Shown here piece after piece: positions 11,819 through 21,458 of a stretch of DNA of 64,000 bases. The stretch covers positions 1-64,000 of the forward strand of contig CASFYQ010000006.1 of the NCBI GenBank assembly GCA_949298955.1, given 5' to 3'. The notes under the pieces were generated by a model. That model was not told the origin of the DNA. It saw only the letters and a list, made by a program, of their open reading frames with translations, and did no database searches. Numbering within the stretch: the first letter of the stretch is position 1; each line of letters starts with the position of its first letter. The translations under genes were made by a program, and so were the position numbers. This DNA is from an uncultured Bacteroidales bacterium (lineage in GTDB: Bacteria > Bacteroidota > Bacteroidia > Bacteroidales > Barnesiellaceae).

Positions 11819-12979
11819 TCAGTAACCAAACCGTTGGGCAGCCCGTTGCATTGACTCGACGATTTTCACGCCGAAGGGACAACGTGTTTCGCAGGCGTGG
11901 CAGGCGACACACTCCGAAGCATGGTGGTCGAGCGCCTTGTAGTGTTCACGCACGGTCTCGGGAATTTCGCCTTGGGCGACCGTCAGGTTATAGAATTTGT
12001 TCACCGAGGCGATGTCGATTTTCGATGTACAGGGAGCGCAGTGGCCGCAATACATGCAGTGGCCTTGCCACGAGAAGCGGTCGAGCCCGGTCATCACCCG
12101 GGTATAGTCGCGCTCTTGGGGAGTGGCTTGGCACCAGGCTACCGCCCGGGCTATCTCGTTGCGGCTCTTGCAACCCACCATCACGGCAGCCACGGCCGGA
12201 CGGGTGAGGGCATATTCGATGGCCTGTACCGGAGTGAAGGCACAGCCGAAGGGTGAGTTCTCCCGGTCGAGCAGGTCGCCGCCGCCGAAGACCTTCATCA
12301 CATCGATGGCCACGCCTTCGCGTTCGCACAAGGCATAGAATTGCTCGCGGGCCGGGTCGATGTTGTGCAGGGTACCGGCGTAGCTTGCCTGGTCGAAGAG
12401 CGTGTCGACATCTTCATTGGGGGGCAGCAGGTCGTAGCAGGGATTGATAGAGAAGAGGATTACGTCGATGAGTCCCGTCTTCACCGCCATGCCGGCCACG
12501 ATGGGGTTGTGGCTGCTCATACCTATGTGACGTATCTTGCCCTCGGCTTTCAGCCGTCGGGCTATCTCGATGATTTCGTGGTCGAACACGGTATGGAAAT
12601 CCTCTTCCGAGTCGACATAGTGAATCATGCCTATATCCACATAGTCGGTGCGCAACTGTTCGAGCAAGGTTTCAAATGATTCGATTGTTTTCTTGGGGTC
12701 GCGGGTGCGCAGATACTGGTCGTTTTCCCAGACGGTACACAAATGCCCTTGTATGACGAAGCGGTCACGGCGGCCTTCGAGCGCTTGCCCGATATGGGTC
12801 CGCAAGTCGGGATTCGACGAGTAGAGGTCGACAAAGTTGATACCTTGTTCGATGGCAAAATCAAAATCGGTTTTCACCTCCTCGGCGCTTTTGTTCATAA
12901 AACCCTCACAGCCGAGGGCGACGGCGCTCACCTGTATCCCGGTGCGGCCTAATGTACGGTATTCCATAAGCGGATTCAA
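11819..12979 (-). CDS. Aldo/keto reductase with C-terminal 4Fe-4S domain (cytoplasmic)
   Basis: The 386-residue protein has an aldo/keto reductase barrel at about residues 1-270, with YRTLGRTGIQVSAVALGCEG at the start. Two cysteine groups follow near the C-terminus: CMYCGHCAPC (about residue 297) and CVACHACETRCPFGV (about 353-367). No signal peptide is present. The start codon overlaps the stop of the previous gene by 4 bases, so translation is probably coupled. It is the third gene of the ferredoxin-aldo/keto reductase operon. The Fe-S domain suggests electrons enter from a ferredoxin-like partner rather than only from NADPH (inference). The substrate is unknown. Confidence 0.88.
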   Translation of the reverse strand: MNPLMEYRTLGRTGIQVSAVALGCEGFMNKSAEEVKTDFDFAIEQGINFVDLYSSNPDLRTHIGQALEGRRDRFVIQGHLCTVWENDQYLRTRDPKKTIESFETLLEQLRTDYVDIGMIHYVDSEEDFHTVFDHEIIEIARRLKAEGKIRHIGMSSHNPIVAGMAVKTGLIDVILFSINPCYDLLPPNEDVDTLFDQASYAGTLHNIDPAREQFYALCEREGVAIDVMKVFGGGDLLDRENSPFGCAFTPVQAIEYALTRPAVAAVMVGCKSRNEIARAVAWCQATPQERDYTRVMTGLDRFSWQGHCMYCGHCAPCTSKIDIASVNKFYNLTVAQGEIPETVREHYKALDHHASECVACHACETRCPFGVKIVESMQRAAQRFGY

Positions 12980-14358
12980 AATTCTTTACCTTGTTTCAAA
13001 TCTTCGACAAAGCGGTCGATGCGATGCAGTTCCTTGGGTATGTCGATGCTTTGCGGGCAATGGTGTATGCACTGTCCGCACCCCACGCAGTGGTTGGCTT
13101 GGCGCAATTTGGGTACGCTGCGGTCATACCCGATGAGGAATGCTCGCCGGGCCTTGCGGTAGTTCTCGTCCTGCGACGAAGCTGGCACGTTGCCTTCGTT
13201 GATGCACTTGTTATAGTGGACGAGAATGGCGGGTATGTCGATGCCGTAGGGGCAAGGCATGCAATATTTGCAGTCGTTGCAGGGAATCGTGGGGTAGCGC
13301 ATCATCAGTTGGGCGGTCTCTTCGAGAAAATCCCGGTCGTTGTCGGTGAGGGGATCGAGGGGCGAATAGGTGCGCAAGTTGTCTTGCAGATGCTCCATGT
13401 AGGTCATGCCGCTCAGCACGGTGAGCACGTCGGGGAAAGAGCCGGCAAAGCGGAAGGCCCATGAGGCCACGCTCAACTCGGGTTTCCGTTGTTTGAGTTT
13501 GGCAGCGATGTGGTCGTGTACGTTCGACAGACGGCCGCCCAGCAGGGGCTCCATGATGATGGCGGGAATGTTGCGCTTTTTCAATTCGGCATAGAGATAC
13601 TCGGCGTTTACGTTGCGTCCCGAAGCGTGGAGCCAGTCGACGTAGTTGAGCTGAATCTGTACAAAGTCCCAGTGGGCAAAATCGTCCATGGCCAGCACCT
13701 CGTCAAAGACATCTTTTGTGCCGTGGAACGAGAAACCCAGGTTGCGGATACGACCTGCCTTGCGCTCCTCGATGAGGAAATCGAGCAGGCCGTTGTCGAT
13801 GTAGCGGGCCCGGAAGGTCTCGATGCCGCCGTTGCCGATGGAGTGGAGCAGGTAGTAGTCGATGTAGTCGACTTGCAGGTCGACAAACGACTTGCGGTAC
13901 ATGGCGATGGAGTTTTCGCGGGTATAGTTGGCAAAATTGGACAATTTGGTGGCGATGAAATATTTGTCGCGCGGATAGCGTTTGAGGGCGATACCGGTCG
14001 CTTTTTCCGAGCCGCCCTGCATGTAGACTGGAGCGGTGTCGAAATAATTCACGCCGTGGGCGATGGCATAGTCGACCAGTTCGTTTACGGCTTCCTGGTC
14101 GATGGTGCTGCTGGTTCCGTCGGACGAAGGGATACTCGGCAGTCGCATCATGCCGTAGCCCAGCAACGACACACGGTCGTGGGTGGTGGGGTTGGTGCGG
14201 TAGGTCATCTGGTCGGTGGGGATTTCGGTCGTTGCCGTGTGAGCCTCTTGCTGCCGGTTTTTACACCCGGGCAGTATGGCGGTCGAGGCGATGGCCGTTC
14301 CGCCCAAGACTTTCAGGAAATTCCTGCGGTCTATATGTTTGTTTTGCTTGTTTTCCAT
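12976..14358 (-). CDS. Tat-exported lipoprotein aldo/keto reductase with two 4Fe-4S motifs
   Basis: The 460-residue protein opens with a twin-arginine signal (DRRNFLKVLGG), a short hydrophobic stretch and a lipobox-like LPGC near residue 32. It thus looks like a folded, cofactor-loaded protein exported by Tat and anchored by lipid. The aldo/keto reductase domain covers about residues 55-345. The C-terminal ferredoxin region has CNDCKYCMPCPYGIDIP and CVGCGQCIHHCPQSIDIP. A periplasmic aldo/keto reductase has little access to NADPH. Electrons could therefore come from the membrane Fe-S protein encoded 19 bases upstream (inference). It overlaps the next gene by 4 bases. tatA/tatC lie 6-7 kb away. 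Confidence 0.85.
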   Translation of the reverse strand: MENKQNKHIDRRNFLKVLGGTAIASTAILPGCKNRQQEAHTATTEIPTDQMTYRTNPTTHDRVSLLGYGMMRLPSIPSSDGTSSTIDQEAVNELVDYAIAHGVNYFDTAPVYMQGGSEKATGIALKRYPRDKYFIATKLSNFANYTRENSIAMYRKSFVDLQVDYIDYYLLHSIGNGGIETFRARYIDNGLLDFLIEERKAGRIRNLGFSFHGTKDVFDEVLAMDDFAHWDFVQIQLNYVDWLHASGRNVNAEYLYAELKKRNIPAIIMEPLLGGRLSNVHDHIAAKLKQRKPELSVASWAFRFAGSFPDVLTVLSGMTYMEHLQDNLRTYSPLDPLTDNDRDFLEETAQLMMRYPTIPCNDCKYCMPCPYGIDIPAILVHYNKCINEGNVPASSQDENYRKARRAFLIGYDRSVPKLRQANHCVGCGQCIHHCPQSIDIPKELHRIDRFVEDLKQGKEF

Positions 14359-14377: not shown

Positions 14378-15871
14378 TTAGATGATGCGGTGTTTTTGAT
14401 GCCCCTCTACATAGATGGCGCTGAATGGACGGGCCGGGCACAGGTTCTCGCAGGCGCCGCAGCCGATGCAACGCTCGGTGTTGACAACCGGGATTCGGGG
14501 CGAGTCGGCCACGTCGGGGTCCGAGGCGACCATCTGAATGGCTCCCACGGGACAGTGGCGGGCGCAGTTTCCGCAACTCACACCGTCGGTGAGGACGATA
14601 CAGTTGTCTTTCACCCATACGGCATGCCCTATCTGTATGCCCGATTTTTCGGCCAAAGAGGTCAGACGGATAGCGTCAGTGGGACAGACTTCGGCACATT
14701 TCGCACATTCCGGGCGGCAATATCCCCGCTCGTAAGACATTTCGGGTTGCATGAAAGTCATCAACTTGCCCGACGGGCGCAGCACCTGATTGGGACAGTT
14801 CGAGATACACAACTGGCAGGCGGTGCAGTGCTGGGCCAGATGCGAGGCGCTGAGCGAGCCCGGTGGAGTGATGGGGGTGGCACGCTTGGGTATTTTCTTT
14901 TCTTCGATAATCGCGAGGCCTCCGTCGACTTTCATCTCTTGTGCTTTCAGCAGTGCACTCCCTGCCAATACGCCGGTGAGGGTGAGGAATGCCCGGCGCG
15001 ATTCGGCTCCTTTCTCCTCGGTGCCGGTGGCCGGTTTTGTCGGTCGAACGGCCCGGGTGCGAGGCGCGTAGCGTATGGCACCTTGGCGGCATTTGTCAAT
15101 ACAGTCGAAACACGTCACGCAGCGGCTGTAATCGATGGTGTGGTTTTTGGCGTCGATGCACGAAGCCTTGCAGTTGCGGGCACACGACTGGCAGCCGTTG
15201 CATTTGCTTGTATCGATGACAGGGCGGAAGAGCGAGAAGTGCGAAAGCATTCCCAGAGTGGTGCCTACCGGGCAGATGGTGTTGCAATAGGTGCGTCCGT
15301 TGCGCCAGGCCAGCACGACGATGACGGCAAGGGTGATAAGGGCCACGAGGAGCGAGGGGAGGCTTTTGAGCCAAACCTCGGTCGAGTAGAAGGCATAGCT
15401 GTCGAAATGTTCGGCCACGGCAGCGAGCAGGTTGTTCCCCCATCGGTAAACAGGTGCGAACAGATTGGTGGCAATGCGGCCGTAGGCACTGTATGGTGCG
15501 ATGAGGGCGGCCCACGAAGCCAGCCCGGCTACCATTGTGGCGATGAAGATGACCAGCATACCGTAGCGCAGCCACGAAAGGGCCGGCGAGTAGCGGAAGC
15601 GGTTCTTCTTGTGTTTGCCGGCTACCCACGAAACGATGTCCTGAAATACACCCAGCGGGCAGATGACCGAGCAGTAGATGCGGCCGAAGAGCAGGGTGAG
15701 TGCGACGAGCAGAATGATAACACCCGCATTTAAGGCCAGCACGGCCGGGAGAAATTGTATTTTGGCCAGCCAGCCGAACCACAGGTGCAGTGTGCCCGTG
15801 ACGTCGAGGAACAGCAGCGTGATGAGTGCAAAGCAGATAGTTGCTGCAACTATTCTGATTTTTCGTAACAT
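14378..15871 (-). CDS. Membrane polyferredoxin, NapH-like and NapG-like halves fused
   Basis: The N-terminal half of this 497-residue protein has about five membrane helices and two CxxxCP motifs (YCSVICPLG near residue 66, YCNTICPVG near 198), as in NapH/NosR/RdxA membrane ferredoxins. Ferredoxin motifs follow: CNGCQSCARNCKASC and CVTCFDCIDKC. At about residue 292 RRAFLTLTGVLAGSALL resembles a twin-arginine signal and begins a NapG-like part. That part carries CTACQLCISNCP, CAKCAEVCP, CGNCARHCP and CIGCGACENLCP. This suggests one protein carrying electrons from the membrane quinol pool to the periplasmic side. It heads the operon with the two aldo/keto reductases. An operator and a promoter lie upstream at 16098-16166. 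Confidence 0.85.
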   Translation of the reverse strand: MLRKIRIVAATICFALITLLFLDVTGTLHLWFGWLAKIQFLPAVLALNAGVIILLVALTLLFGRIYCSVICPLGVFQDIVSWVAGKHKKNRFRYSPALSWLRYGMLVIFIATMVAGLASWAALIAPYSAYGRIATNLFAPVYRWGNNLLAAVAEHFDSYAFYSTEVWLKSLPSLLVALITLAVIVVLAWRNGRTYCNTICPVGTTLGMLSHFSLFRPVIDTSKCNGCQSCARNCKASCIDAKNHTIDYSRCVTCFDCIDKCRQGAIRYAPRTRAVRPTKPATGTEEKGAESRRAFLTLTGVLAGSALLKAQEMKVDGGLAIIEEKKIPKRATPITPPGSLSASHLAQHCTACQLCISNCPNQVLRPSGKLMTFMQPEMSYERGYCRPECAKCAEVCPTDAIRLTSLAEKSGIQIGHAVWVKDNCIVLTDGVSCGNCARHCPVGAIQMVASDPDVADSPRIPVVNTERCIGCGACENLCPARPFSAIYVEGHQKHRII

Positions 15872-15929: not shown

Positions 15930-16097
15930 CACCTACGAAAATACAAAAGATTTTATATTTCGGGAGCCTGTGGCTCGGAAAAAGCTCATTTGCCGGCTGT
16001 TTTTTTACGATTGTCGAGTCCTCTCTCTTTCCCGCTTTGCCGACGTGCCGCATGGCTGTCCTTTCGCATGGTATGGCAGAGGCTCTTTATCCGGATA

Positions 16098-16128
16098 CAA
16101 AGATAGCAGAGGCCGGTACACCGTAAAA
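16098..16128 (-). promoter_or_regulatory. Predicted promoter of the ferredoxin-aldo/keto reductase operon
   Basis: Read on the minus strand, 16105-16098 is TATCTTTG, a perfect TAnnTTTG -7 box. TTTT at 16128-16125 is a weak -33 box, 19 bases upstream. A weak -33 with an adjacent operator is what an activator-dependent promoter looks like. Confidence 0.6.
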
Positions 16129-16134
16129 GAGACA

Positions 16135-16166
16135 GATTACAGATAGTTGTACCTATATTACAGATT
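16135..16166. promoter_or_regulatory. AraC-type operator candidate, copy 1
   Basis: The 32-base block begins GATTACAGATAG and ends TTACAGATT. It contains ATTACAGAT twice as a direct repeat with 21-base period, two helical turns, as expected for AraC-family sites. It matches the block at 17645-17676 at 26 of 32 positions. It starts 29 bases upstream of the -7 box of the minus-strand promoter, the same distance as at copy 2. It also lies 67 bases before the NUDIX start. Confidence 0.65.
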
Positions 16167-16232
16167 ATATTTAGATGTCCTTATACTTTGATGCAGGTCT
16201 TATGCGTTTATTTTTTATAAGAAATATTTGTC

Positions 16233-16865
16233 ATGAGTACTCAATCCAACGAATCGCCCATGTGGCTCGACTGGGCAAAGGAATTGCAATTTATCGCTCA
16301 AGCGGGATTGGCTTATTCTAAAGACCCTTTTGATTTGGAGCGTTTCCAGCGCATACGGGAAATCTCGGCCGAGATTGTGAGCCGCCATACCGGACTGCCC
16401 TATGAGCAGGTGGCGCATCTGTTTTGTCGTGAAACAGGGTTTCAAACTCCCAAGCTCGATACTCGGGCCGCTGTTTTTGAGGGAGAAAAGATTTTGCTGG
16501 TCGAGGAGCGCGACGGGACTTGGTCGTTACCCGGAGGGTGGGTCGATGTGAACCAAACCCTCAAAACCAATACGGAGAAAGAGGTCCTCGAAGAGGCGGG
16601 TCTCGAGGTAGAGGTGGTGCGCTTGTTGGCCTTGCAGGATCGAAATCTTCATAACAAGCCTCCCTATGCCTACAACGTGTGCAAAGCGTTTTTCCTCTGT
16701 CGGGCCAAACAAGGTGCTTTCCGCCCCAATTCCGAGACTTTGGGGAGCGCTTATTTTGCCCTCGACGAGCTGCCGATTCTCTCGGAAGACAAGGTTACCC
16801 GCGAGCAGATAGCCCTCTGTTTCGAGGCCGCCCGGGACGAGAATTGGGTGGTGCCTTTTGATTGA
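16233..16865 (+). CDS. NUDIX hydrolase, ADP-ribose pyrophosphatase-like
   Basis: The 210-residue protein has an N-terminal NUDIX_N helical domain at about residues 8-65 (WAKELQFIAQAGLAYSKDPFD...RYxRIREI-like). A NUDIX fold follows at about 68-200. The NUDIX box is readable as GGWVDVNQTLKTN then EKEVLEEAGL. Two consensus positions are altered: the first Glu of Gx5E is Gln, and the Arg of REUxEE is Lys. The EE pair that binds metal is intact, so activity is plausible. The likely substrate class is nucleoside diphosphates linked to sugars. It is divergent from the ferredoxin operon and shares its control region. Confidence 0.85.
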   Translation: MSTQSNESPMWLDWAKELQFIAQAGLAYSKDPFDLERFQRIREISAEIVSRHTGLPYEQVAHLFCRETGFQTPKLDTRAAVFEGEKILLVEERDGTWSLPGGWVDVNQTLKTNTEKEVLEEAGLEVEVVRLLALQDRNLHNKPPYAYNVCKAFFLCRAKQGAFRPNSETLGSAYFALDELPILSEDKVTREQIALCFEAARDENWVVPFD

Positions 16866-16950
16866 ATACGATTTTAGCGCATAAATTTTTCCGAAGGGAC
16901 AAACTCGATGTCCATAGCGAAATGGCTTTGTGCCTGTTGGGTATATGAAA

Positions 16951-16988
16951 GGTCTGAGCCTGTGGATTTCAGTCCGCAGGTTCAGACC
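16951..16988. terminator. Hairpin between convergent NUDIX and flavodoxin genes
   Basis: GGTCTGA/TCAGACC outer arms and CCTG/CAGG inner arms form an imperfect stem of about 14 pairs between the two convergent stops. ATAAAAAAAC follows on the + side and TTTCATAT on the - side. Confidence 0.6.
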
Positions 16989-17016
16989 ATAAAAAAACAG
17001 GGGTATGCTACTCATT

Positions 17017-17571
17017 CTATTTGAGTAAGTCGAGTTTTTGTAACCATTTGTCGACAATCGTGCGGCAGTTCCCGGTCGAGCTGTCGCGCATGGAGAGGCC
17101 GTCGAGGAAACGGGCTCCGGGACACAACTTTTTGAGGTCGGCGATGGCATGGCCGAAACCACCTCCGCCGTGGGTCATAAAGGGGATAATGGTCTTCCCG
17201 TTGAAATCGTAGCCCGTCAGAAACGAGGCTACGGGCGGTGCTACGGTGCTCCACCAGTTGGGCGAGCCCACGAAGACAACGTCGTAGGAATCGAAATCTC
17301 TCACCCGGTTTTTCAGGGCGGGGTGTTGCCCGGCATTGATTTCGCGTTTGGCCACATCGAGCAGTGAATTGTAGTCGGTAGGGTAGTCCTTTTGCGGGAC
17401 AATTTCGAAGAGGTCGGCCCCGACAGCTTTGGCTATCTCGGTGGCTACGGTGCGGGTGTTGCCACTGTGCGAAAAGTAGGCGACAAGTACTTTCTGCCCT
17501 TTTTCCCGGTTTTGGGCGGGTGTGGCGATGCAAGTAAACATGAGCATGGCTAAAACAATTTTGTGAATCAT
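17017..17571 (-). CDS. Exported flavodoxin-fold protein
   Basis: The 184-residue protein has a signal peptide (MIHKIVLAMLMFTCIATPAQ) and then a flavodoxin domain. The FMN phosphate loop is SHSGNTRTVA near residue 35-44. GSPNWWSTVAPPV and FMTHGGGGFGHA supply the isoalloxazine loops. The start at 17571 fits the signal peptide; 13 further in-frame codons upstream run into the promoter. Export is odd for an electron carrier, but it matches the neighbouring periplasmic aldo/keto reductase, for which it might be a partner (inference). The predicted promoter and operator are at 17608-17676, and the AraC regulator is divergent. Confidence 0.87.
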   Translation of the reverse strand: MIHKIVLAMLMFTCIATPAQNREKGQKVLVAYFSHSGNTRTVATEIAKAVGADLFEIVPQKDYPTDYNSLLDVAKREINAGQHPALKNRVRDFDSYDVVFVGSPNWWSTVAPPVASFLTGYDFNGKTIIPFMTHGGGGFGHAIADLKKLCPGARFLDGLSMRDSSTGNCRTIVDKWLQKLDLLK

Positions 17572-17607
17572 AAGAGTTTGTTTTCTTGTGTTTGAATTTC
17601 TCAACAG

Positions 17608-17615
17608 CAAAATTA
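17608..17615 (-). promoter_or_regulatory. Predicted -7 box of the flavodoxin promoter
   Basis: On the minus strand 17615-17608 reads TAATTTTG, a perfect TAnnTTTG. No TTTG is found 19-21 bases upstream, which suggests activator dependence. The start codon is 36 bases downstream. Confidence 0.55.
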
Positions 17616-17644
17616 CGCTTTCCGATAGCCTGCTGTCGTATATC

Positions 17645-17676
17645 GATTACGGATAGGTGTACCATTTTTACCGATT
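17645..17676. promoter_or_regulatory. AraC-type operator candidate, copy 2
   Basis: GATTACGGATAG...TTTACCGATT is the partner of the block at 16135-16166 (26 of 32 bases equal). It has the same internal 21-base direct repeat (ATTACGGAT and TTTACCGAT). It starts 29 bases from the flavodoxin -7 box, exactly as copy 1 does from its own -7 box. It also lies 37 bases before the -7 box of the divergent araC-type gene, so autoregulation is possible. Confidence 0.65.
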
Positions 17677-17713: not shown

Positions 17714-17721
17714 TAACTTTG
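17714..17721 (+). promoter_or_regulatory. Predicted -7 box of the AraC-type regulator gene
   Basis: TAACTTTG is a perfect Bacteroidales -7 box, 66 bases before the chosen start codon. No clear -33 box is seen. Confidence 0.5.
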
Positions 17722-17787: not shown

Positions 17788-18690
17788 ATGGCTATGGACG
17801 AGATTCTGAAACTGGATCATATCTTCCAGTACAACGATATGATGGGACAGGAGACTTTACACCCGCTGGTGAGTGTGGTTGATTTTTCGAAATGCAGCCC
17901 CATACCCTATCGCTTGCAACGGTATGGCTTCTACGCTGTTTTTTTGAAAGATGTCAAGTGCGGCGATATACGCTACGGACGCAACTACTACGACTATCAG
18001 GAGGGTACGCTCGTTTTTGTGGCTCCGGGTCAGGTAGTGGGTATTGTCAACAACGGCGAATATTTCCAGCCCAAAGGGTGGGCATTGCTTTTCCATGCCG
18101 ATTTGATACGGGGCACGTCGTTGGCCCGCGAGATGAAACACTATTCGTTCTTTTCCTATGAGTCGAACGAGGCACTGCATCTCTCGGAGCAGGAGCGCAA
18201 GGTGGTGCTCGACTGTTTCCATAACATCGAATCGGAATTGCATCACGCCGTTGACAAACACAGCAAAACCCTTATCGTGGCCAATATCGAGCTGTTTCTC
18301 AATTATTGCGTGCGTTTTTATGACCGGCAGTTTATTACTCGCAGCCATGTGAACAAGGATATTCTCACCCGATTTGAAAATTTGTTGAACGACTATTTTG
18401 GGTCCGACAAGCCGCAGACCGTCGGGCTGCCGTCGGTACAGTATTGTGCCGAGATGCTGCACCTCTCGCCCAACTATTTCGGTGACCTCATTAAGAAGGA
18501 GACCGGCAGCACGGCACAAGAACATATTCAGGCCAAACTGATAGGGGTAGCCAAGGAGCGTATCTTCGACACCTCGCTCTCGGTGAGCGAGATTGCCTAT
18601 GGATTGGGATTCAAATATCCGCAGCATTTCAGCCGTCTGTTCAAGCAGAAGGTGGGTATGACTCCCAACGAATACCGTTCGCAAAATTGA
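17788..18690 (+). CDS. AraC-family transcriptional regulator
   Basis: The protein is 300 residues from the ATG at 17788; an ATG two codons later and a GTG at 17773 are alternatives. The N-terminal part (about 10-180) is a cupin-like sensor domain with the DYQEGTLVFVAPGQV signature. The C-terminal part has two helix-turn-helix motifs, around SVQYCAEMLHLSPNYFGDLIKKETG and SVSEIAYGLGFKYPQHFSRLFKQ, ending GMTPNEYR. It is divergent from the flavodoxin. The paired operators at 16135 and 17645 make it the prime candidate for control of flavodoxin and the ferredoxin-aldo/keto reductase operon. The inducer is unknown, and an electrophile or redox signal would fit. Confidence 0.88.
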   Translation: MAMDEILKLDHIFQYNDMMGQETLHPLVSVVDFSKCSPIPYRLQRYGFYAVFLKDVKCGDIRYGRNYYDYQEGTLVFVAPGQVVGIVNNGEYFQPKGWALLFHADLIRGTSLAREMKHYSFFSYESNEALHLSEQERKVVLDCFHNIESELHHAVDKHSKTLIVANIELFLNYCVRFYDRQFITRSHVNKDILTRFENLLNDYFGSDKPQTVGLPSVQYCAEMLHLSPNYFGDLIKKETGSTAQEHIQAKLIGVAKERIFDTSLSVSEIAYGLGFKYPQHFSRLFKQKVGMTPNEYRSQN

Positions 18691-18857: not shown

Positions 18858-20195
18858 ATGAATGAGAAGAGGAGCAAGGCAGAGTGGCTGCGACGCTATG
18901 CCAGTTTTGTGGTTATTCTTTTTGTAATTGCCTTCGGTACATCGTTGTCTATACGAGCCAACTTGGGTTCTTCGCCCATTTCGGCCCCGCCCTATATCCT
19001 GTCGTTAATCCCGGGTATGCGCCTTACTATGGGGCAACTCACCATGTGCATGCACGTTTTCTTTATTGCGATTCAAGTGTTGTTGCTGCGCAAAAATTTC
19101 GAGAAACGGCAATATACCCAGATTTTGGTCTCGTTCCTCTTCGGCTTCTATACCGACCTTACGATGTGGATGACCGGTTTCCTGCAAATCCCGTTCGATA
19201 CCGAGCCTCTCATCGGTTATCCGTTGCGATTTATCGAGTTGCTCATCGGCGGAGCCATTTTGGCATTCGGTATTGCCTGTGAGGTACGTTGCGACTCGCT
19301 CATGCTGGCCGGCGAAGGCATGCCGTTGGCCATCTCGAAATTTTTGAAGAAAGATTTCGGCAAGGTAAAGATTTGTACCGATACGTCGCTGGTGTGTATC
19401 GGCATCCTCTTCATGTTTGTCTATTTCGGCCACTGGGATTGGCAGATGGTGGGTGTGGGTACCTTGGTCTCGATGTTTTATGTGGGCTTTATGGTACGGG
19501 TCTTTACTCCGCACATCGGGTGGCTTGACAAGATATTTATTCCCAAGTCTGTCCGGCAGGCAGCCCGGCCTGAGGCAGGCGACACCTGGGGCGGCCACCG
19601 GGTTGTCACCATCGCCCGCATGTATGGAAGCGGTGGCAATGCCGTAGGCGAGGCTGTGGCCCGTCGGCTGGGGTGTCCCTGTTACAATCGTCAGATTATC
19701 GATAGGACTGCTTGCCAGATGGGCTATTCGACCGACTTTGTGGCCGAGACCGAACAGAACCTCTCGACCGGCCGCCTGTGGGAGTTGATATTCTCCGATA
19801 GCGGTATTCCCGCCTCGATGAACCCCTCGAAAGAAGATGCCATCTATGTGAGCCAAAGCCGCACCATTCGCGAACTGGCGCACCAAGGGCCGTGCGTCAT
19901 TATCGGGAGATTGGGCAACTGGATTTTGCGTGACGACCCTCATGTGTTGCGGGTATTCATCACATCGGGGCGAGACTTTGCCGTGAGGCAGATAGCCGAA
20001 AAACTCCACCTCTCGGACGAGGAGGCCGCTCGTAAAATCGAGCGGGTGAATACCGGCCGGGCCAATCATTATCGGCATTACACCGGCCGCTCGTGGACCG
20101 ATATTGCCGGCTACGACTTGGTAATCAATACCGAATGCACCGGTATCGACGGCGCTGTCGATATGATTTTGCGCGCAGCTAAAAATATCGGGTAG
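18858..20195 (+). CDS. YczE-like membrane domain fused to a cytidylate-kinase-like domain
   Basis: The 445-residue protein has two parts. Residues ~12-225 have about five membrane helices and match the YczE/YitT-like integral membrane proteins (GTSLSIRANLGSSPISAPPY). Residues ~243-440 are a cytidylate-kinase-like P-loop domain. The loop is RMYGSGGNAVGEAVARRLG, where GSGG replaces the usual GxGKS/T, as in the Cytidylate_kin2 family. YNRQIIDR, VIIGRLGN and RDFAVRQIAEKL follow. A TTG at 18843 is also in frame, but the ATG fits better. The kinase part would face the cytoplasm, and its substrate is unknown. The gene is monocistronic and converges on tatC. Confidence 0.8.
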   Translation: MNEKRSKAEWLRRYASFVVILFVIAFGTSLSIRANLGSSPISAPPYILSLIPGMRLTMGQLTMCMHVFFIAIQVLLLRKNFEKRQYTQILVSFLFGFYTDLTMWMTGFLQIPFDTEPLIGYPLRFIELLIGGAILAFGIACEVRCDSLMLAGEGMPLAISKFLKKDFGKVKICTDTSLVCIGILFMFVYFGHWDWQMVGVGTLVSMFYVGFMVRVFTPHIGWLDKIFIPKSVRQAARPEAGDTWGGHRVVTIARMYGSGGNAVGEAVARRLGCPCYNRQIIDRTACQMGYSTDFVAETEQNLSTGRLWELIFSDSGIPASMNPSKEDAIYVSQSRTIRELAHQGPCVIIGRLGNWILRDDPHVLRVFITSGRDFAVRQIAEKLHLSDEEAARKIERVNTGRANHYRHYTGRSWTDIAGYDLVINTECTGIDGAVDMILRAAKNIG

Positions 20196-20282: not shown

Positions 20283-21119
20283 TTATTGCCGAGGCGCTGT
20301 TTCGGTAGCATCGTTGTCATCGTCATTTTTTTGAGTCGGTTTCACCACCCAGGCACTCATCTCGTAGAGTGCATAGAGGGGAACGAACACCACCGAGAGG
20401 GTGAAAGGATCGCTCGACGGAGTGATGAAGGCGGCCAGGATAAGCAGTATGATGATGGCGTGGCGACGGTAGGTCTTGAAGAATTGCCGCGTGATGAGCC
20501 CCATGTTCGAGAGCAGCCAGCAGAGGAGCGGCAGTTCGAATACGAGCCCCATGATAAAATTGAGGGTGAGAAAATTGTTCATGTAGGAGTCGAGCGAAAT
20601 CTGGTTGGGAATCATTTCGCTCACCTGATACTCGGCCAGGAACCGCAGGGTGAGGGGGAATACCAGAAAATAGCCGACGGCGATACCGATAAAAAACATG
20701 ATGTTCCCGGCCAGAAAGGCGCCGCGGGCGTGCTGCTTCTCGCCGGCATAAAGCCCCGGGCTGATGAACGTCCACAGTTGGTAGATGACATAGGGGAAAG
20801 CCACCAGCAGGGCTATCCACATGGAGGTACTCATGTGGATAAAGAACTGGGAGGCCAACTGTATGTTGATGAGTTTTACCTCGAACCGGTCGTTGCAGAA
20901 ATCGGGCAATATGGCAGCGTGCTGGTTAAGCTCGCACAGCCATCGGTACAACACGAAATCGGAACGGCAGGGGGCCAGAATGATACTGTCGAAAATGTAG
21001 GGCATGAGCGAGAAGAAGACGATGGCCAGCAGGACAATGGCGGCGAAAGAGCGCAAGATGACCTTTCGCAAGTCGGCGACGTGCTCCCAAAAACTCATCT
21101 CTTTCAATTCATTACTCAT
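20283..21119 (-). CDS. tatC: Sec-independent protein translocase subunit TatC
   Basis: The 278-residue protein has six membrane helices. Its N-terminus, MSFWEHVADLRKVILRS, has the conserved E and LR used for twin-arginine recognition. Other TatC stretches are QLWTFISPGLYAGEK and FELPLLCWLLSNMGLI, and the C-terminus has FITPSSDP. It is longer than E. coli TatC because of an insert in the first periplasmic loop (about residues 50-90). tatA lies 99 bases upstream on the same strand, so the two likely form an operon. The aldo/keto reductase at 12976-14358 is an obvious substrate. Confidence 0.95.
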   Translation of the reverse strand: MSNELKEMSFWEHVADLRKVILRSFAAIVLLAIVFFSLMPYIFDSIILAPCRSDFVLYRWLCELNQHAAILPDFCNDRFEVKLINIQLASQFFIHMSTSMWIALLVAFPYVIYQLWTFISPGLYAGEKQHARGAFLAGNIMFFIGIAVGYFLVFPLTLRFLAEYQVSEMIPNQISLDSYMNNFLTLNFIMGLVFELPLLCWLLSNMGLITRQFFKTYRRHAIIILLILAAFITPSSDPFTLSVVFVPLYALYEMSAWVVKPTQKNDDDNDATETAPRQ

Positions 21120-21218
21120 GGAAATACAGCGGCTTTACCTGCGGGGACAACTCCCGCACGATAATGACAAAGTCGGGTTCTCTCAGGCATATCCCATCGG
21201 GAAAGCCGGGACAGCAGG

Positions 21219-21458
21219 TTATTGTTGTTGCTCTTTGTTTTGTTTCGGCTTGTTGTTGTCGGTCGAGGTCGGAGTGTCTATCTCCTCTTCGATTTCGTTT
21301 ATGCCCTTTTTGAAGCTGCGCACGCCTTTCCCGATACCGTGCATCAGTTCGGGAATCTTTTTACCGCCGAATAAAAGCAAAAATATAATCAGGATTATAA
21401 TTATTTCGGTCGTTCCCAAGTTACCAAAAAGCAGCAATATTGCAGAGAGTGTATTCAT
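21219..21458 (-). CDS. tatA: Twin-arginine translocase subunit TatA
   Basis: The 79-residue protein has a short outer segment and one membrane helix ([21 protein letters not shown]). The FGxKKIPEL hinge, an amphipathic helix ([20 protein letters not shown]) and a polar Gln/Asn-rich tail follow. There is no separate TatB, so this is a minimal TatAC system, as is usual in Bacteroidota. It precedes tatC. Confidence 0.93.

Follow-up and report, generated by a model that had tools for sequence, protein, structure and literature searches.

A putative AraC-type operator at a fixed promoter distance precedes reductase and other detoxification genes across the Bacteroidota

Two similar 32-base blocks in the genome of an uncultured Bacteroidales bacterium are, with a probability that we put at about 0.82, the operators of an AraC-family regulator encoded beside one of them. 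The regulator would act as a tandem-dimer activator of a flavodoxin gene, of an operon coding for a ferredoxin protein and two aldo/keto reductases (AKRs), and of a hydrolase unit, and would also regulate its own gene (araC). Both blocks lie in the window, the 64,000-nucleotide stretch of DNA that was analysed (Table 1). Block 1 (16135-16166) is GATTACAGATAGTTGTACCTATATTACAGATT and block 2 (17645-17676) is GATTACGGATAGGTGTACCATTTTTACCGATT. They are identical at 26 of 32 positions, with a chance probability of about 8e-5 by a binomial estimate that covers the two intergenic regions; no other ungapped alignment to either block in the whole window exceeds 20 of 32. TTACVGAT is repeated at a 21-bp period in both, and the gap from block to minus-strand -7 box is 29 bases in each case. 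The initial annotation had reported this agreement, the 21-base direct repeat and the 29-base distance to a perfect TAnnTTTG, and direct reading of the DNA bore out all three. Across the 2.54-Mb genome, the pattern TTACVGAT-N11..13-TTACVGAT occurs twice, in blocks 1 and 2, while the reversed control pattern occurs 0 times. The conserved element exceeds 32 bp, with a TGTATA extension on the promoter side of the blocks that reads TGTCTC at block 1.

Table 1. Features of the araC, flavodoxin and ferredoxin/AKR region, in window coordinates.
Feature	Position	Strand	Basis
Second aldo/keto reductase, C-terminal ferredoxin domain	11819..12979	-	Pfam E 5e-17
Aldo/keto reductase, C-terminal ferredoxin domain, Tat-type signal (RRNFLK)	12976..14358	-	Pfam Aldo_ket_red E 1.5e-35, Fer4; signal read from sequence
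NapH/NapG-like membrane polyferredoxin	14378..15871	-	NCBIfam NapH/MauN subfamily E 3e-24, below cut-off; multiple Fer4
Proximal promoter-like element TATTTTCG	15936..15943	-	Alignment: all nine Barnesiella genomes; TATTTTTG in G029
-7 box TATCTTTG, distal AraC-type promoter of ferredoxin/AKR operon	16105-16098	-	Direct reading; kept in orthologous leader alignment
Operator 1, upstream of ferredoxin/AKR operon	16129..16166	-	R1 match; orthologous sites in 7/8 other Barnesiella genomes and G029
Flavodoxin (Flavodoxin_4), N-terminal signal sequence, predicted regulated gene	17017..17571	-	Pfam E 3.5e-33
-7 box TAATTTTG, flavodoxin promoter	17615-17608	-	Direct reading; AnnTTTG at same offset in 59/74 loci
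Operator 2, araC-flavodoxin intergenic	17639..17676	-	Tandem half-sites CGGTAAAAATGGTA / CCGTAATCGATATA; R1 match; kept in 74/80 phylum loci
-7 box TAACTTTG, araC promoter	17714..17721	+	Direct reading; 67 bases from operator TTAC start
AraC-family regulator, cupin-type sensor and double HTH	17788..18690	+	Pfam HTH_18 E 9e-20; AlphaFold model

A 75-position operator profile (R1) was built from 45 loci, none of them in the window; they include the locus of a close relative (L040), an uncultured Barnesiella whose AraC protein is 92% identical to the window's and the best match found, and the source genome is accordingly called Barnesiella here. R1 scored operator 2 at 46.1 bits (E 2e-13) and operator 1 at 23.6 bits (E 2e-6). 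Elsewhere in the window the best score is 5.7 bits, and the profile picks exactly the two sites of the initial annotation. Regulon calls were made with R1 alone because the repeat pattern at three mismatches hardly beats its reversed control (17 versus 13). Three weaker pattern matches were rejected as further sites: C1:59976 and C11:1085 fall within coding genes, and C3:124476 has no downstream gene on its strand.

We examined 80 loci of named Bacteroidota that encode regulators 64-92% identical. In 74 of the 80 the operator stands before the orthologous araC; its orientation never varies, and its distance to the start codon is mostly 92-104 bp. These loci come from the Bacteroidales, Chitinophagales, Sphingobacteriales, Cytophagales, and Flavobacteriales. 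Lack of conservation at orthologous loci had been proposed as a refutation, and the sites turned out to be kept far beyond the genus. Relatives of the regulator were confirmed at 582 or more Bacteroidota loci. In an operator-anchored alignment of the loci, the divergent strand has AATCAGTAATAnTGGTAnnnAAnnCnGTAATCTGTATA, followed after about 24 unconserved bases by AnnTTTG. The half-sites, CAGTAAT..TGGTA and CnGTAAT..TATA, have a 21-bp period and so fit the expectation for a pair of AraC monomers, each with two HTHs. No description of the operator or the regulon was found in open-access papers. This is a known kind of regulator with a new regulon and a wide distribution, and we propose that the operator serves as an AraC-type switch across the phylum.

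The distance between operator and promoter is also fixed. At the divergent promoters, AnnTTTG is found at one exact offset in 59 of 74 loci, compared with a mean of 0.1 per other offset. The TAnnTTTG of araC itself is at offset 66 or 67 in 58 of 74, with 67 in the window. Both target promoters of the window have a perfect TAnnTTTG, the Bacteroidetes housekeeping -7 box. Their -33 boxes had been described as poor, and the same holds phylum-wide, with no conserved -33 box (TTTG) between operator and -7 box and with columns 39-60 of the aligned promoters nearly devoid of information. A sigma-70 scan gave matches at chance level. With the -7 box taken to be centred at -7, the operator would extend from about -72 to -35, a placement that would suit an AraC-type activator substituting for the -33 box. 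A possible rule for activator-dependent Bacteroidota promoters is an operator ending at about -35 followed by TAnnTTTG, with no -33 box.

The gene at 17788 had been assigned to the AraC family, and both its HTH_18 match (E 9e-20) and its fold agree. Its ATG start codon is at 17788 or 17794. Pfam matches to the 297-aa protein are to the HTH alone. Its AlphaFold model (pLDDT 86.5) matches the RhaR sensor domain with Z 15.8 over 156 residues and AraC with Z about 12, and the C-terminal part matches the DNA-binding domains of MarA, SoxS, and AraC with Z about 12-14. A double HTH, an N-terminal cupin sensor/dimerisation domain, and tandem half-sites 21 bp apart by the promoter place it with the AraC-like subgroup of the AraC/XylS family. 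The recognition helices (L-S-x-N-Y-F-G-D and Y-P-Q-H-F-x-R-x-F-K) are nearly invariant in 86 orthologues. The genome encodes one regulator of this clade, the next AraC-family protein having E 2e-14, and a whole-genome scan found no R1 match beside the other AraC-type proteins detected in it. A cysteine redox switch via C140 and C171 was rejected, since some orthologues have other residues at these positions. Of the 86 orthologues, 85 have a Cys at 55-56 (residue 55 in the window's regulator). It is a possible electrophile-sensing residue but no more than a lead, because the model places it in a sensor-domain loop of low confidence. Downstream of araC, 18861-20195 encodes a DUF6198 membrane domain fused to a cytidylate-kinase-like domain (Cytidylate_kin2 E 5e-45).

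Outside the window, the genome has a third strong R1 site (E 1.2e-8) at about 170 kb on the contig, upstream of an alpha/beta hydrolase gene followed by an O-acetyltransferase-like gene. From these matches we infer that the regulon of this genome comprises araC, the flavodoxin gene, the ferredoxin-AKR-AKR operon, and the hydrolase/acetyltransferase operon. The initial annotation had joined the three transcription units of the window into one regulon; the conserved sites support this grouping, though not as a complete set, with at least one further operon to be added. In four Barnesiella genomes (L146, L141, L148, and L156) the hydrolase promoters retain the operator and share a degenerate distal box, AACCnAGATT-like in place of CAGTAAT.

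Four of the eight other Barnesiella genomes (G001, G002, G007, and G008) have the flavodoxin site; in G003, the gene opposite the araC operator encodes an FMN reductase, and a flavodoxin gene comes next. Sites are unlinked to araC in G001, G002, G008, and G029, and regulation there would therefore be in trans. We compared 119 genomes of the order: sites away from araC are present in 11 of the 22 that encode the regulator and in 3 of the 97 in which it was not detected (Fisher p 2e-7). We limited the test to such sites, as the p of 2e-12 obtained with all sites is partly circular, the araC-adjacent ones having trained the profile. Several related species encode at least two regulator paralogues with the same operator type, so a one-to-one pairing of regulator and site is clear just in single-copy genomes, including this one.

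The operator recurs before the same gene families. In 38 of 64 phylum loci the divergent gene encodes an AKR. The remaining divergent genes code for SDR, Fe- and Zn-alcohol dehydrogenases, carboxylesterases, flavodoxin, CMD, and ABM proteins; in the window the divergent gene is the flavodoxin. Order-wide targets include flavodoxin, FMN reductase, CMD/cupin, and hydrolase genes. As the targets are AKRs, flavodoxin/FMN reductases, alcohol dehydrogenases, and CMD/AhpD-like, cupin, and ABM proteins, the inducer is most likely a reactive carbonyl, a quinone, or a similar electrophile. The initial annotation had spoken of a redox regulon. The regulon stands, but the label is too general for targets that are, phylum-wide, mainly carbonyl- and electrophile-handling enzymes, and "carbonyl/electrophile detoxification" fits better. 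It is somewhat unlikely that the inducer is instead a sugar, an aromatic acid, or another metabolite, with the reductases being catabolic. The sensor domain does fit the folds of the sugar-sensing RhaR, AraC, and BgaR best, but a shared fold is uninformative on the ligand. The identified operator-linked genes encode enzymes without sugar transporters or kinases, and AKR, flavodoxin, FMN reductase, Fe-ADH, SDR, CMD, and ABM make up a detoxification mix.

How the regulator might work can be outlined from the operator and its placement. The protein encoded at 17788-18690 would bind both blocks, as a dimer on two tandem half-sites 21 bp apart with two helix-turn-helices per half-site. In the promoter direction, the half-site consensus is CAGTAATAnTGGTA...CnGTAATCTGTATA. 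Bound at about -72 to -35, it would recruit RNA polymerase to a TAnnTTTG promoter with no -33 element. The single araC-flavodoxin operator is also at a fixed spacing from the araC -7 box and could thus provide autoregulation. Autorepression predicts the same fixed spacing, and the regulator could be a repressor or a pure autoregulator here, with activation left to something else. We regard this as improbable because the target operators are upstream of the -7 box and abut a -33 region without a conserved box, which is activator placement, and because targets unlinked to araC show the identical arrangement. Activation thus remains our preferred reading. Against the explanation as a whole stand the weaker score of site 1 (23.6 bits), its lack of TGTATA, its loss in G007, and the presence of a site in three genomes in which no regulator was detected.

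Site 1 is nevertheless kept before the ferredoxin/AKR operon in seven of the eight other Barnesiella genomes, and outside the family in G029. In an Alistipes genome (L041), araC and the ferredoxin-AKR operon are immediate divergent neighbours, separated by the operator and TAATTTTG. It is very improbable that the divergent Nudix gene (16233-16865), and not the ferredoxin/AKR operon, is the target of block 1: the block is 68 bp before the Nudix ATG and Nudix adjoins the site in G000, G001, G002, G006, and G008, but the site persists before the ferredoxin operon with no Nudix nearby in G003, G029, and L041, and the fixed -7 spacing is found on the ferredoxin side alone, the Nudix side having no TAnnTTTG at the araC-side offset.

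Taking operator 1 as belonging to the ferredoxin/AKR operon, a leader of about 220 nt follows the AraC-type promoter, and it matched no Rfam family. A proximal element lies about 65 nt before the ORF, with the perfect form TATTTTTG in G029. G007 has lost operator 1 at this operon and retains the proximal element TATTTTCG. Since the element is conserved even there, transcription of the operon probably starts from two promoters, of which the AraC-type one would be under the regulator's control. The element is strongly conserved together with its flanks (AAAAATCTTTGcGTATTTTCGTAGGTGATTTT), and in the window it is followed by an inverted repeat, ATTTTTCAT-C-ATGAAAAAT; this region may bind a second regulator. 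In G007 (L028), a close relative, the Nudix gene is missing along with operator 1, and the space between flavodoxin and the ferredoxin operon is instead occupied by a CMD-family-like gene.

The NapH-like protein and the first AKR look like an electron path from quinol to the periplasm that supplies an exported aldo/keto reductase. The NapH-like protein resembles a NapH-NapG fusion with an internal RRAFLTLTG, and in the AKR (12976..14358) a lipobox-like LPGC accompanies the Tat-type signal. On the minus strand at 20283-21458, about 1.6 kb past the end of araC and near this operon, are ORFs that resemble tatC and tatA in sequence. A tentative wider picture is of an undescribed, phylum-wide electrophile-stress regulon that combines one AraC-type sensor, a rigid promoter geometry, and detoxifying reductases. 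In gut lineages it would include a Tat-exported ferredoxin-AKR that reduces carbonyls in the periplasm with menaquinol electrons delivered by the NapH/NapG-like membrane protein. The regulator itself suggests a route by which reactive carbonyls or quinones might be sensed in gut Bacteroidales. The Bacteroidota are a phylum with few stress regulons of defined sites; for a one-component AraC regulator at several hundred loci or more, the operator, the promoter geometry, and the listed targets can now be put to the test.

Like E. coli AraC at araBAD and RhaR/RhaS, the regulator has a cupin dimerisation/sensor domain and a double HTH. The tandem half-sites of E. coli araI1-araI2 are 21 bp apart by the promoter, the same arrangement as here. 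Operator sequence, TAnnTTTG promoter type, and regulon set the present system apart from AraC and RhaR/RhaS. The Bacteroides HTCS with an AraC-type domain have predicted tandem direct-repeat sites 21 bp apart on average (PMC3878776), an architecture shared by the operator described here. Unlike these HTCS, the regulator is a one-component protein whose sensor is a cupin domain and which has no kinase, receiver, or periplasmic sensor domains, and its predicted targets are for detoxification rather than for polysaccharides. In E. coli, the AraC-family activator YqhC is divergent from the aldehyde reductase genes yqhD-dkgA, which encode an Fe-ADH and an AKR (PMC8262776). AKR genes are likewise linked to the operator here, with an Fe-ADH in two loci (L053 and L173). 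The regulator is not a YqhC orthologue, because the DNA-binding domain alone aligns (26% over 80 residues, E 6e-6); no similarity to the YqhC sensor domain was detectable, hmmsearch aligning only profile positions 212-291, the HTH region. By analogy, the regulator would work as YqhC does, as an AraC-type activator divergent from reductases.
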